A stretch of DNA of 38,762 bases. Origin: an uncultured Pelagibacteraceae bacterium. Lineage in GTDB: Bacteria; Pseudomonadota; Alphaproteobacteria; Pelagibacterales; Pelagibacteraceae. The position numbers and the translations under genes were made by a program. Below the pieces are notes generated by a model. That model was not told the DNA's origin, ran no database searches, and worked only from the letters and a program-made list of their open reading frames with translations. This document shows positions 34,270-38,013 of this stretch, piece after piece (the stretch's first letter is position 1; every line of letters begins with the position of its first letter). Location: NCBI GenBank assembly GCA_902589155.1, contig CACIRV010000005.1, forward strand, positions 1-38,762. The letters are read 5' to 3'.

Positions 34270-35034
34270 TTAAAAACTATCTTTTAAATCACGTAATTTG
34301 GAGAAAATTTCTTGCTCTGATGCACTATTTAAATTTAAGGCATTTTTAATTGAAGGTTCATTACATCTTAGAAATATATTAGTTTTTTTCTCTTCTTCAA
34401 GAGAGATTGGAATAGTAGGTAAGTTAGAATCAGTATTTGATTTAATCCAATTAACCTTTTTTTTTAATGATTCATTATTAAAATCATATTTTAGGCAAAA
34501 TTCTAAATTTTTTTTTGTGTATTCGTGTCCACAATATATTTTTGTCTCATCAGGTAAATTTTTTAATTTATTTAAAGAGTTAAACATTTGTTCGTAAGTA
34601 CCCTCGAAAATTCTACCGCACCCTAAAGAAAATAGTGTATCTCCGGTAAAAACTATTTTTTCATCTTTAAAGTAAAATGCTATATGCCCTTTTGTATGAC
34701 CAGGAATAAAAATGACCTCAAAAGAAGCTTTGCCAATTTTAAAATTTTGTTTTTCTTTAAGATTTATATCTATACCTGGTATACGATCTTTATCTATTTC
34801 AGATCCTAAAATTTTTGATTTATATTTTTCTTTAAGTTTTTGATTTCCACCTACATGATCAAGGTGATGATGTGTATTTAAAATATAATCTAGTTTATTA
34901 TATCTTTTTTTTATTATTTGATTACATTGATCAAAATCTGAAGGATCAATTATTGCAACTACATTTGTATCTTTGTCGTGGAGTAGATAACTATAATTGT
35001 CATTTAAACATGAGATAATTTCTATATTTAACAT
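34270..35034 (-). CDS. gloB: hydroxyacylglutathione hydrolase (glyoxalase II)
   Basis: GloB hydrolyses S-lactoylglutathione to lactate and glutathione in methylglyoxal detoxification. The 254-residue protein is a metallo-beta-lactamase-fold enzyme with THHHLDHVGG (His55, His57, Asp59, His60), a later FIPGHTKGH, FTGDTLFSLGCGRIFEG, and YCGHEYT. The C-terminal substrate domain includes LRCNEP. It starts in a TAATG overlap with metW, so it is co-translated with the methionine genes. Confidence 0.94.
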   Translation of the reverse strand: MLNIEIISCLNDNYSYLLHDKDTNVVAIIDPSDFDQCNQIIKKRYNKLDYILNTHHHLDHVGGNQKLKEKYKSKILGSEIDKDRIPGIDINLKEKQNFKIGKASFEVIFIPGHTKGHIAFYFKDEKIVFTGDTLFSLGCGRIFEGTYEQMFNSLNKLKNLPDETKIYCGHEYTKKNLEFCLKYDFNNESLKKKVNWIKSNTDSNLPTIPISLEEEKKTNIFLRCNEPSIKNALNLNSASEQEIFSKLRDLKDSF

Positions 35035-35627
35035 TATCCTATTAAAAATATTCCGAGTTTAGAAAAAAAGTTTTTGATTTCAAGGTTTCCTTTTTTAATT
35101 TCAGAAGTTTTATTTTCATTAATTCCTATAGCTCTTTTAATTTCAATATTTTTTTCTGCACAAAAGTGAAATAAATCTTTAATTGAGCACATATGTAGAT
35201 TAGGAGTGTTATACCAAGAATTTGGTAAAGTTTTTGTAATAGGCATTTTCCCAAAAAATAACAAACTGGTTCTAACCTTCCAATATCCAAAATTAGGTAT
35301 TGATATAATTACCGATTTACCAATTCTTAAAAGATCTTTTAAAACCTTTTCAGGATTATAAAACGCTTGAAGTGTTTGACTTAATATAACAAAATCGAAA
35401 GACTGATTTGGAAATTGATGAAGCTCAGTTTCTGCATTTCCTTCAATAACTGGAAGACCTTTATAAATACATTTAGTGACGTTATCTTTTTTTAGCTCTA
35501 AACCACGTGCCTCTATACTTTTTTCTTCAATTAGATGACTCATTAAAGAGCCGTCTCCGCAGCCAACGTCTAGAACTCTTACATTATTAGGTAATAAATC
35601 TGCAATTACTTTAAATTCTTTTTTCAT
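35034..35627 (-). CDS. metW: methionine biosynthesis protein MetW
   Basis: MetW is a SAM-methyltransferase-fold protein that accompanies MetX and is thought to support its acyltransferase function. The 197-residue length matches the family. Motif I is VLDVGCGDGSLM (18-29). Further family segments are GLPVIEGNAETEL, SQTLQAFYNPEKVL and FGYWKVRTSLLFFGKMPIT. It overlaps the end of metX by 17 bases and gloB by 1 base. Regulation would come from the SAM-II switch ahead of metX. Confidence 0.95.
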   Translation of the reverse strand: MKKEFKVIADLLPNNVRVLDVGCGDGSLMSHLIEEKSIEARGLELKKDNVTKCIYKGLPVIEGNAETELHQFPNQSFDFVILSQTLQAFYNPEKVLKDLLRIGKSVIISIPNFGYWKVRTSLLFFGKMPITKTLPNSWYNTPNLHMCSIKDLFHFCAEKNIEIKRAIGINENKTSEIKKGNLEIKNFFSKLGIFLIG

Positions 35628-36750
35628 TTTTAAATTTTATATACATTGAGTCAATAAATCCTTTTAAAGTTTTGAGAAATTCTGGCTCATTAAGAAGAAA
35701 AGAGTCATGACCTTTATCAGTTTTAATTTCAGAAAAAGAAACATCAGCTCCTGAAGCATTAAGAGCAATGACTATATCTTTATTTTCTTTTGTTGTGTAA
35801 AGCCAATCTGATGAGAAAGAGATGACTAAAAATTTTGTTTTTTGATTTTTGAAAGCTTCAAGAAGGCCACCTTTAAAATGTTTAGATAAATCAAAATAAT
35901 CCATCGCTCTAGTAATGTATAAGATAGAGTTTGCATCAAATCTTTCTACAAAGGCACTACCCTGATGTCTTAAATAACTCTCAACTTGAAAATCAGCATC
36001 AAAACTAAATTCATAATCAGCTTTTTCTTGTAGCTTTCTTCCAAACTTTTCTTGCATTCCTTTCTCAGATAAATAACTAATGTGACCCACCATTCTTGCT
36101 ACAGCTAATCCATTTTTAGGTTGTACATTTTTTAGTAAGTATCTTCCTTTTTCCCATACTGGATCTGCCATAATAGCTTGTCTGGCTAATTCATTAAGAG
36201 CAATGTTTTGAGCGCTATGACTTGTGCTACAAGCAATAGGAATTGCAGAAAATGTTTTATTTGGAAATATTGTACAAAATTCAAGTGACTGCATTCCACC
36301 CATAGATCCACCAGTGGCACAAAGAAGTTTTTCTATTCCTAAATAATCTAAAAGAGCTACTTGAGCTTTAACCATATCTCTTATCGTTATTACTGGAAAA
36401 TTTAATCCATATGGTTCATTTTTCTTTTTATCTATTTCTTTTGGACCCCATGAACCCATACAACCTCCAATAACATTTGCACAAATTACGAAGTATTTGT
36501 TAGTATCAATTGCTTTTCCTGGCCCAACGGCAGTTACCCACCACCCTTCTTTTTTTGTTACTGGATTTATTCCGCTAACAAATTGATCACCTGTAAGAGC
36601 ATGAAAAACTAATATAGCATTATCCTTAGACTTATTTAGTTTTCCATAAGTTTCATATGCTAAAGGAAAATCTTTAATAGTTTGACCACAATCTAATCTA
36701 AGTGGTTGAGAGACATTAATTGTCTTAATATTTTCAGTTTTATAGTTCAT
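35611..36750 (-). CDS. metX: homoserine O-acyltransferase (MetX)
   Basis: MetX acylates homoserine, usually with acetyl-CoA, to open methionine synthesis. It has 379 residues in an alpha/beta-hydrolase fold. The nucleophile is Ser149 in GGSMGG, with the aspartate in SSDWLY and the histidine in TDKGHDSFLL. Conserved NVIGGCMGSWGP and FHALTGDQF segments are present. Acetyl versus succinyl preference cannot be read from the sequence with confidence. The ATG lies only two bases after a terminator T-run, without a normal Shine-Dalgarno site. A SAM-II riboswitch stands directly upstream. Confidence 0.95.
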   Translation of the reverse strand: MNYKTENIKTINVSQPLRLDCGQTIKDFPLAYETYGKLNKSKDNAILVFHALTGDQFVSGINPVTKKEGWWVTAVGPGKAIDTNKYFVICANVIGGCMGSWGPKEIDKKKNEPYGLNFPVITIRDMVKAQVALLDYLGIEKLLCATGGSMGGMQSLEFCTIFPNKTFSAIPIACSTSHSAQNIALNELARQAIMADPVWEKGRYLLKNVQPKNGLAVARMVGHISYLSEKGMQEKFGRKLQEKADYEFSFDADFQVESYLRHQGSAFVERFDANSILYITRAMDYFDLSKHFKGGLLEAFKNQKTKFLVISFSSDWLYTTKENKDIVIALNASGADVSFSEIKTDKGHDSFLLNEPEFLKTLKGFIDSMYIKFKNEKRI

Positions 36751-36752
36751 CC

Positions 36753-36778
36753 AAAAAAAAAGCCCAGCTAAACTGGGC
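36753..36778 (-). terminator. intrinsic terminator between SAM-II aptamer and metX
   Basis: On the minus strand, GCCCAG (36778-36773), loop TTTAG, and CTGGGC (36767-36762) form a 6-bp GC-rich stem followed by nine T (36761-36753). It is the strongest terminator in the window. It ends two bases before the metX ATG, so it must act as an attenuator for metX and not as the end of an upstream gene. Confidence 0.85.
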
Positions 36779-36794
36779 GAACCCCTTTTTAGCT
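36766..36794 (-). promoter_or_regulatory. predicted antiterminator fold of the metX leader
   Basis: On the minus strand, AGCTAAA (36794-36788) is exactly complementary to TTTAGCT (36772-36766). The enclosed GGG (84-82) can pair with CCC (77-75) around a TTCG loop (last two digits of positions). This fold takes up the 3' strand of the SAM-II aptamer and both arms of the terminator stem, so it is exclusive with both. The pairing is seen in the sequence; the switching is inferred. Confidence 0.55.
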
Positions 36795-36836
36795 AAATTT
36801 ATTATGCGCTTGCAATATGGTTAAATCAGCGCCCTT
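36782..36836 (-). promoter_or_regulatory. SAM-II riboswitch aptamer
   Basis: The minus strand reads GGGCGCTGATTTAACC, then TATTGCAAGCGC, then ATAATAAATTTAGCT and AAAAAGGGG. This matches the SAM-II (metA-type) consensus, including the P1 stem GCGCT/AGCGC (36832-36828 with 36810-36806), the invariant TTTAACC and TTGCA segments, and the 3' strand AGCTAAAAAGGG that forms the pseudoknot. SAM-II is known mainly from alphaproteobacteria and marine metagenomes, ahead of methionine genes. High SAM should lower metX-metW-gloB expression. Confidence 0.93.
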
Positions 36837-36838
36837 AA

Positions 36839-36867
36839 TGTTTACTAAATCGTCTTAAACTTGTCAA
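36839..36867 (-). promoter_or_regulatory. promoter of metX-metW-gloB
   Basis: On the minus strand a consensus -35 TTGACA (36867-36862) is followed after 17 bases by TAAACA (36844-36839), a weaker -10. Transcription would start within a few bases of the first nucleotide of the SAM-II aptamer, so almost the whole leader is riboswitch. Confidence 0.6.
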
Positions 36868-36930: not shown

Positions 36931-38013
36931 ATGAGATTACCTAAACCAAAAAAGATTATAGCCCAAAAGTATGTGACAGGCCTAAGTCTATTCAAGCGAA
37001 AAAAGGTCAAAATTAAATTATCTGCAAACGAGTCTGCTCTTGGCCCTAGTCCTAAAGCCATTAGGGAATACAACAAGGTTTCTAAGAACTTTAAAAGGTA
37101 TCCTGATACCAATGGCACTTCCTTGAGAAGAATTATAGCCAATAAATTTAATTTAGATGAAAATAAAATAATACTTGGGTCTGGCTCAGATCAGATATTT
37201 GAATTTGTTTGTAACGCCTTTATAAAAAAAAATGATGAAGTTATTGTTCCTAAATACAGTTTTATAATTTATAGGATTTACAGTAAGATTAATGGTGCAA
37301 AAATTATTTTTGCTAATGAAAAAAATTTTACTATATCTGTTAAAAACATACTCTCTAAAGTAACTAGAAAGACTAAAGTAGTTTTTTTAGCTAATCCTAA
37401 TAATCCTACAGGTACATACATCAATAAAACAGAACTAATGTATTTAAGAAAAAAACTTAGAAGCGATATTCTTCTTGTAGTAGATGATGCGTATTTTGAA
37501 TATTTAAAACAAAAAGATTATCTATCCGGTCTAAAATTATTTTCCAAACACAAGAATGTTTTAGTTACAAGAACATTTTCTAAAGTTTACGGATTAGCAG
37601 GATTAAGGATAGGCTGGGGATATGCTTCTAAAGAGATTATTAATACTTTAAATCTTATTAAACCTCCCTTTAATGTAAATAGACCAGCTTTGTTCGCAGC
37701 TTCTGCAGCAGTAAAAGATACTAATTGGCTTAAAAAGGAAGTTAATCATATCCGTAAATGGAATAAGTTATTATTTAAAAGATTTAAAGAAATGAAAATT
37801 GCAACAAATGAGAGTAAAACAAATTTTTTACTGTTAAATTTTGATAGAGTTAATATAAGTTCAAAGAAAGTATTTCAAAAATTAGCAAACGCAGGTATTT
37901 TAGTTAGAACTATGCATGTTTATGGAATAAAAAATTCTTTAAGAATAACCATTGGAAAGAGTAAAGAAAATAGAAAGTTAATTTCTATTTTAAGGAAAAT
38001 TGTAAATGTTTGA
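36931..38013 (+). CDS. hisC: histidinol-phosphate / aromatic aminotransferase
   Basis: This is a PLP-dependent class I/II aminotransferase of 360 residues of the HisC type. It has LSANESALGPSPKAI at the N-terminus, GSGSDQIFEF, LANPNNPTGTYI, VDDAYFEYL, and the PLP lysine Lys218 in TFSKVYGLAGLRIGW. The C-terminal LRITIGKSKEN holds the substrate-carboxylate arginine. HisC transaminates imidazole-acetol phosphate in histidine synthesis. The 8-base overlap with tyrA suggests that this copy may also, or mainly, serve tyrosine or phenylalanine synthesis. The start is near a TATAAT box and has no clear ribosome site. Confidence 0.9.
   Translation: MRLPKPKKIIAQKYVTGLSLFKRKKVKIKLSANESALGPSPKAIREYNKVSKNFKRYPDTNGTSLRRIIANKFNLDENKIILGSGSDQIFEFVCNAFIKKNDEVIVPKYSFIIYRIYSKINGAKIIFANEKNFTISVKNILSKVTRKTKVVFLANPNNPTGTYINKTELMYLRKKLRSDILLVVDDAYFEYLKQKDYLSGLKLFSKHKNVLVTRTFSKVYGLAGLRIGWGYASKEIINTLNLIKPPFNVNRPALFAASAAVKDTNWLKKEVNHIRKWNKLLFKRFKEMKIATNESKTNFLLLNFDRVNISSKKVFQKLANAGILVRTMHVYGIKNSLRITIGKSKENRKLISILRKIVNV

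Follow-up and report, generated by a model that had tools for sequence, protein, structure and literature searches.

The DNA analysed here is a stretch of 38,762 nucleotides (the window) from an uncultured SAR11 (Pelagibacteraceae) bacterium, in which a putative riboswitch on the minus strand precedes metX, the gene it would regulate (Table 1). Read 5' to 3' from the sequence, the metX leader consists of a TTGACA/TAAACA promoter, a SAM-II aptamer, a 4-nt spacer, a GC hairpin, nine T, GG and the ATG (36750). The metW gene overlaps the end of metX, and the two probably share one transcript. The neighboring hisC gene on the other side is divergent and there is no convergent gene, therefore the terminator does not serve a convergent gene; assignment of the terminator to hisC was ruled out on the same ground.

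Table 1. Features of the metX locus (positions in the window) and the terminator used as a control (positions in locus L200).
Feature	Position	Strand	Description
Likely sigma-70 promoter of metX	36839..36867	-	TTGACA 36867-36862, 17 nt, TAAACA 36844-36839
SAM-II aptamer	36783..36836	-	P1, L1 GAUUUAACC, UUGC, linker, ligand/P2 strand; 5' end presumed
Aptamer P1	36832-36828 with 36810-36806	-	GCGCU with AGCGC; sequence reading
Aptamer ligand/P2 strand	36794-36783	-	AGCUAAAAAGGG; sequence reading
Predicted antiterminator	36766..36794	-	AGCUAAA 36794-36788 with UUUAGCU 36772-36766; GGG 36785-36783 with CCC 36777-36775
Spacer, aptamer to hairpin	36782-36779	-	GUUC; sequence reading
Intrinsic terminator hairpin	36762..36778	-	GCCCAGUUUAGCUGGGC; GCCCAG-UUUAG-CUGGGC
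U-tract of nine	36753..36761	-	ends 2 nt 5' of metX ATG
metX (homoserine O-acetyltransferase), regulated gene	35611..36750	-	379 aa; NCBIfam NF001209 MetX, 504.9 bits, cut-off 331
metW	35034..35627	-	NCBIfam TIGR02081 MetW, 229.3 bits, cut-off 189.5; overlaps metX end
hisC (histidinol-phosphate transaminase), divergent	36931..38013	+	NCBIfam TIGR01141 HisC, 323.8 bits, cut-off 276.55
Control terminator	L200 1711-1732; orthologues L213-L232		GGGCNNNNGCCCA-T9; invariant stem, drifting loop

The metX promoter was absent from the output of our consensus scan because its -10 element is poor; TTGAC is nonetheless found 39-44 nt 5' of aptamer L1 in all 108 of the related leaders that have a terminator (described below). 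With this promoter the metX transcription start would fall just upstream of P1. We sought in-frame ATG, GTG and TTG codons from the preceding stop to 36750 and found none, which rules out an upstream in-frame metX start in the window.

An initial annotation, made from the sequence, had described a SAM-II switch abutting metX, and this assignment holds: the gene matches the MetX profile, and the aptamer is identical at 46 of 52 bases to the SAM-II model RNA SAM-II-WT-RS, a 52-mer printed in PMC8494917 (articles with PMC numbers are cited here for their accessible portions). Relative to the model RNA, the segments GATTTAACC, TTGC and AGCTAAAAAGGG are intact, as are GATTTAAC, TTGC and GCTAAA. The marks of the class occur in SAM-II order (the P1 hairpin with GAUUUAAC, then UUGC, then GCUAAA), and all three conserved marks are present in 104 of the 108 related leaders, the other four lacking an exact GATTTAAC. 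No Rfam family matched anywhere in the window at gathering score; at permissive settings the best match was SAM_alpha (RF00521), with 20.8 bits against a cut-off of 36. This score is not evidence against membership, because the two leaders identical to the model RNA, which served as positive control, scored 34.1 bits and also miss the cut-off. An RF00521 search of the window's own genome gave no match, and neither did its controls. On its sequence we classify the element as a SAM-II riboswitch, this copy of which is predicted to bind SAM.

The terminator had been annotated as a 6-bp GC stem followed by nine T; hairpin and T9 are indeed there, but from the fold the stem can also be counted as 7 pairs closed by a UUA triloop. 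It sits between the aptamer and the metX reading frame, the arrangement of a transcriptional riboswitch. A consensus scan of 4.8 kb returned two terminator-like sites, compared with 1.4 in shuffles; the metX site has five G-C pairs and a clean T9, and the second site has three G-C pairs. A stricter scan covered the window and L191-L210, in all 365,325 bases of the window's own genome on both strands, and found seven terminators including that of metX. Strong intrinsic terminators are rare in this examined part of the SAR11 genome, and simple arithmetic from their density puts the chance that a 60-nt slot on one particular strand holds a terminator at about 6 in 10,000. The TTTAGC at the metX loop and 3' arm is not unique, being found also in two of the other six terminators (L194 and L200).

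The antiterminator proposed in the initial annotation was borne out, as AGCUAAA and UUUAGCU are exact 7-base complements, GGG and CCC add three further pairs, and the structure is the best fold of the growing RNA. Using an energy model that ignores the pseudoknot, magnesium and polymerase speed, we computed for the isolated segment (AGCUAAA to hairpin end, 37 C) -12.6 kcal/mol for the antiterminator versus -11.1 kcal/mol for the terminator; when the aptamer strand was blocked, as a proxy for SAM binding, the segment folded as the terminator. In the growing RNA the antiterminator appears at 36768 and remains the best fold to 36752 (-21.6 kcal/mol), and when that strand of the aptamer is blocked, the full terminator has formed by 36762, from then on at -19.3 kcal/mol. 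Folding of the growing RNA was repeated at 20 C, which is nearer to seawater, and the order was unchanged at the lengths tested (antiterminator -30.5, blocked terminator -25.5 kcal/mol); for the isolated segment with U9 at this temperature, the terminator extended into the U-tract was favored (-18.6 versus -17.2). The best fold of the finished RNA is neither of the two structures, but a terminator extended by pairing of AAAAAGG with the U-tract. This extended hairpin becomes best in the whole leader once the second G past the U-tract is exposed, and in the finished 124-nt RNA it has -27.0 versus -23.5. Since the finished RNA favors the extended terminator, the choice made by the switch would be confined to the time of transcription, a trait shared with other attenuators. 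The fold of the 101-nt leader as a whole barely beats shuffles (z -1.41, 16 of 200 shuffles as good).

metX is present in 256 of 297 family genomes. We read 130 metX leaders from 129 genomes, made up of 30 loci and 100 others chosen among the matches listed. The terminator and U-tract were found in 108 of 108 leaders from five genera (g1, 64; g2, 27; g3, 12; g6, 4; g8, 1), one of which (L033, g2) has a single broken pair in the stem, and the terminator was absent from all 22 leaders of four other genera (g4, g9, g12 and g5). A strong terminator was sought and not found in 12 of 12 g4, 4 of 4 g9 and 3 of 3 g12 leaders, and in the three g5 leaders SAM-II itself was not found before metX. Among 107 leaders whose U-tract was counted, 94 have T9, 11 have T8, and T7 and T10 occur once each. 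A broader pattern search, with ligand strand and hairpin specified and the loop left free, matched 125 of 169 genus genomes, many genomes being incomplete. In the family as a whole it matched 169 of 397 genomes, at least five of them only through sites that by eye look unrelated (G056:C15, G370, G192, G069, G088 and G252 among the matches listed, the sole match in five genomes). The loops of the 125 genus matches, read by eye, are TTTAG in 121, with TATAG, TCTAG, ATTAG and TTTTAG once each.

The 108 leaders with a terminator comprise 54 distinct segments, of which 53 were aligned, leaving aside L022 with its six-base loop. Terminator stem cells are 99.7% paired over the 53 segments, and one pair is altered on both sides in five segments. 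The complement AGCTAAA/TTTAGCT pointed out initially is kept across relatives in its core, AGCUA/UAGCU, where the G-C, C-G and inner A-U pairs are present in all 53 segments, the U-A pair in 52 (with one U-G) and the outer A-U pair in 49; outside this core, antiterminator pairs are often broken: the next two A-U pairs fail in 15 and 7 segments, as do the three inner GGG/CCC pairs in 15, 1 and 10 segments, respectively. Overall 86.4% of antiterminator cells are paired in the 53 segments, as against 54.4% when one strand is slid by one column and at most 32% for other slides. No antiterminator pair changed on both sides in these segments, and there was no excess of covariation over shuffles; strict covariation is not expected here because GCUAAA is invariant in 53 of 53, presumably owing to ligand binding. 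On the partner side, loop U9 and G11 and arm C12 and U13 are invariant in the 108 leaders, and A10 is replaced once by G, which keeps a U-G pair; by contrast, A and G alternate (96:12) at the 5' arm position facing U13, and there is variation at loop positions one (100:7:1) and two (79:18:10:1). Among the 125 genus matches the sole change of U13 noticed was in G328, which has CCGGG in the 3' arm.

Folding of these relatives gave terminators in 54 of 54 distinct segments when the aptamer strand was blocked. With the strand free, the antiterminator was the best fold in 34 of the 38 distinct segments assigned to g1 and g2, but in only 3 of 16 (3 of 17 leaders) in g3, g6 and g8, where the terminator was favored by medians of 3.2, 1.4 and 2.2 kcal/mol, respectively. 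The competition of three structures described in the initial annotation is well supported for the window and the nearest genera, where (in the window and those 34 segments) the antiterminator excludes both the ligand-bound aptamer and the terminator, while in the remaining 14 of the 17 g3, g6 and g8 leaders the antiterminator does not come out as the best fold. For these three genera, the switch either depends on kinetics or has less strength.

How often such a complement might arise by chance was gauged with artificial hairpins. In the window, 7 of the 1024 possible 5-nt loops favor the alternative fold more than the native loop does, 22 of 4000 stems of equal GC content with random loops do at least as well, and so do 7 of 4000 shuffled stems and loops. 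The loop and random-stem tests gave 4 (of 1024) and 6 (of 4000) for the model-RNA leader; a common g2 leader gave 5 and 6, and a common g3 leader, in which the terminator wins, gave 57 and 44. We also compared the metX loop with that of an ordinary terminator. Terminator copies with the same stem elsewhere in the genus were rejected as a loop control, numbering at most one per genome (71 of 101 genomes); because of this scarcity we used an ordinary orthologous terminator 5' of a conserved MLNRGLDK reading frame, in 21 same-genus genomes. These are the window's own genome and 20 of 22 others, taken by eye among the matches listed with both terminators; G235 and G303 were excluded, and their ordinary loops add no kind beyond those counted. 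All 21 genomes have TTTAG as the metX loop, and the control terminator has nine different loops on an invariant stem. This contrast between a fixed metX loop and a drifting control loop is the best evidence that the metX loop pairs with a partner. Against such a partner stand the folds of g3, g6 and g8 described above and the TTTAGC in two other terminators of the genome, one of them the L200 control terminator, whose loop drifts and which lies 14 nt before the next ORF.

We consider it very likely that the locus is a transcriptional OFF riboswitch for metX(W); the analysis shows its anatomy, fold energies and conservation in relatives, and SAM binding by this copy, termination, its dependence on SAM and the start site are inferred. 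RNA polymerase would start just upstream of P1. When SAM binds the nascent aptamer, AGCUAAAAAGGG would be held in the pseudoknot, leaving the GCCCAG/CUGGGC hairpin to form, and transcription would end within the U9 tract, which lies 2 nt short of the start codon. When SAM is scarce, AGCUAAAAAGGG would instead pair with the loop of the terminator and the upper part of the 3' arm (AGCUAAA/UUUAGCU, GGG/CCC); this antiterminator would be complete 4 nt ahead of the earliest possible terminator, and metX would be transcribed. The OFF logic proposed in the initial annotation agrees with the computed folds and with the relatives, in which a blocked strand is predicted to yield the terminator throughout and a free strand, in most g1 and g2 segments, the antiterminator.

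A different mechanism has been attributed to the metX model RNA, which the literature labels a 'rare translational' SAM-II and reads as having its Shine-Dalgarno sequence in P2 (PMC6061858, PMC10907184, PMC5780412). Applied to the window, AAAAAGGGG would be the Shine-Dalgarno sequence, SAM would hide it in the pseudoknot, and the hairpin would be secondary. In keeping with this, the interval from ligand strand to hairpin holds an in-frame ATG in 40 of the 108 leaders, including both that are identical to the model RNA (L035 and L042). Direct occlusion is nevertheless improbable for the window, where no in-frame start precedes 36750 and the hairpin intervenes between the ATG and the GGGG, which at 31 nt is not at a working distance; moreover, hairpin and T run persist in 108 of 108 leaders although 66 have no ATG in that interval and two (L008 and L081, the latter with T10) have one out of frame. 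Use of the in-frame ATG would extend MetX through the terminator, reading MPSLAGLFFWM by hand translation in L035 and L042. We give more weight, though still well short of even, to a dual platform in which SAM-dependent termination is joined by an effect on translation of the read-through RNA, exerted for example through the distant GGGG or the start-adjacent hairpin. The extended hairpin of the finished RNA does reach the start codon, and S. meliloti metA reportedly uses a Shine-Dalgarno sequence 74 nt upstream, across a terminator (PMC9373788). The window hairpin ends 11 nt before the ATG, just outside the dual class of Barrick and Breaker, with terminators at up to 10 nt. The distance from T run to first ATG, however, varies from 0 to 14 nt in the relatives (2 nt in 81 of 108), therefore a fixed bridge is not conserved.

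It could also be objected that the terminator acts constitutively, whether or not SAM is present, that the aptamer acts elsewhere, and that the complement is a chance product of the AGCU palindrome common to aptamer and hairpin. The ligand-free terminator is mostly the better fold in three genera, TTTAGC recurs in two other terminators of the same genome, and the authors of the S. meliloti metA study could predict no antiterminator driven by SAM-II (accessible portion of PMC9373788). We think this explanation unlikely all the same: the metX loop is constrained relative to the control terminator of the same genome, the window hairpin ranks near the top of random hairpins, and the mutual exclusion runs through the ligand strand itself.

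A SAM-dependent terminator, our preferred reading of the window, bears on the model RNA as well. An exact search with 51 of the 52 model-RNA bases found AG-914-J05 (CACIWZ010000003.1) and AG-918-M15 (CACMHW010000001.1), both Pelagibacteraceae, whose leaders L035 and L042 are identical to the model RNA at 52 of 52 bases. L042 reads on as GATGCCCAGTTTAGCTGGGCTTTTTTTTTGGATG, and L035 likewise; in both, a terminator of the window type begins 3 nt 3' of the model RNA. We take the printed 52-mer to be the metX SAM-II RNA of PDB 2QWY, from the Sargasso Sea metagenome, and presumably the best-studied SAM-II RNA. We found no publication showing the 52-mer together with PDB 2QWY; the sole fit noted is that C43, named for SAM-II in the accessible portion of PMC5352136, is a C in the 52-mer. 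The original Sargasso clone would be expected to carry the terminator too. On balance we favor the view that the metX RNA of PDB 2QWY from the Sargasso Sea, which is the most studied SAM-II RNA and the textbook example of occlusion of a ribosome site, acts in nature as a transcription attenuator; that its SAM-contacting strand GCUAAAAAGGG doubles as the antiterminator 5' strand, with the loop of the abutting terminator as partner, making the exchange at the ligand site itself; and that within one family at least one replacement of the platform has taken place (terminator; AU hairpin; U-tract with anti-aptamer strand). The wider interest lies in this reassignment. If this RNA natively works through a terminator whose loop is the partner of the antiterminator, the decisive period would be the brief time until polymerase has passed the hairpin, and kinetic, not equilibrium, binding would matter. 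This view also provides a clear case of one aptamer and one gene served by different expression platforms in close relatives.

The initial annotation doubted that the principle was new, and with reason: this kind of system is already known, because SAM-II riboswitches with terminators have been predicted since 2005. Terminators behind SAM-II together with OFF logic appear in Corbino 2005 (PMC1273637), and such terminators also in Barrick and Breaker 2007. SAM-II before metX is reported for P. ubique (PMC2704228) and described there as affecting transcription (PMC5069961), S. meliloti metZ has SAM-II with an intrinsic terminator (PMC9373788), and tandem SAM-II/SAM-V arrangements with terminators are described (PMC9481103, PMC11508383). 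The accessible portions of PMC4239095, PMC5352136, PMC2211319 and PMC12434664 make no mention of SAR11 metX terminators. In the search listings and the accessible portions of articles, a scope without most subscription papers and the original structure paper, we found no literature in which the metX model RNA is said to be followed by a terminator or an antiterminator.

Among known systems, the metX model RNA (SAM_alpha, RF00521) shares with the window the same gene and, at 46 of 52 bases, the aptamer; the literature calls it translational, whereas the two SAR11 genomes that carry it have an intrinsic terminator behind it. The alpha-proteobacterial SAM-II systems (Corbino 2005; Barrick and Breaker 2007; S. 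meliloti metZ) are alike in aptamer, terminator, ORF and predicted OFF logic, but in their accessible portions we did not find an explicit SAR11 metX antiterminator, whose partner in the window is the terminator loop and 3' arm. The Pelagibacter bhmT tandem SAM-II/SAM-V also has SAM-II before a terminator, with a hairpin predicted before U9; the window differs in having no SAM-V between SAM-II and the gene, which is metX. SAM-I (S-box) transcriptional riboswitches have the same antiterminator/terminator OFF logic with a different aptamer. In SAM-I the exchange usually involves a strand of P1 and not the ligand strand.

The genera without the strong terminator show other arrangements downstream of SAM-II. 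In g4 the metX aptamer has no hairpin terminator; GCTAAANNNG leads directly into T5-8 in all 30 leaders (27 distinct; L233-L250 (18), L104, L108-L110, L113, L115, L117, L119-L121, L124 and L129), and CTCACAATTC or CTCTCAATTC comes next in 29 of the 30, L129 differing. This stretch complements the aptamer GAATTGCGAG at 9 of 10 positions, with a standing mismatch and a duplex energy of about -8 kcal/mol, and has the look of an anti-aptamer strand or else of a platform made up of pseudoknot and U-tract. In g9, g12 and g5 we see by eye the SAM-II 3' strand (AGG, GGG or GAGG) followed by AU-rich hairpins of differing sequence before the ATG, mostly with a short T run (L101-L103, L118, L122, L123, L128, L251, L252); these are perhaps weak terminators or bridges from Shine-Dalgarno to AUG. 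In the two g5 loci L251 (G005) and L252 (G037), SAM-II precedes another gene, and the downstream sequence, read by hand, is MKLESKIVIDFIKPF.
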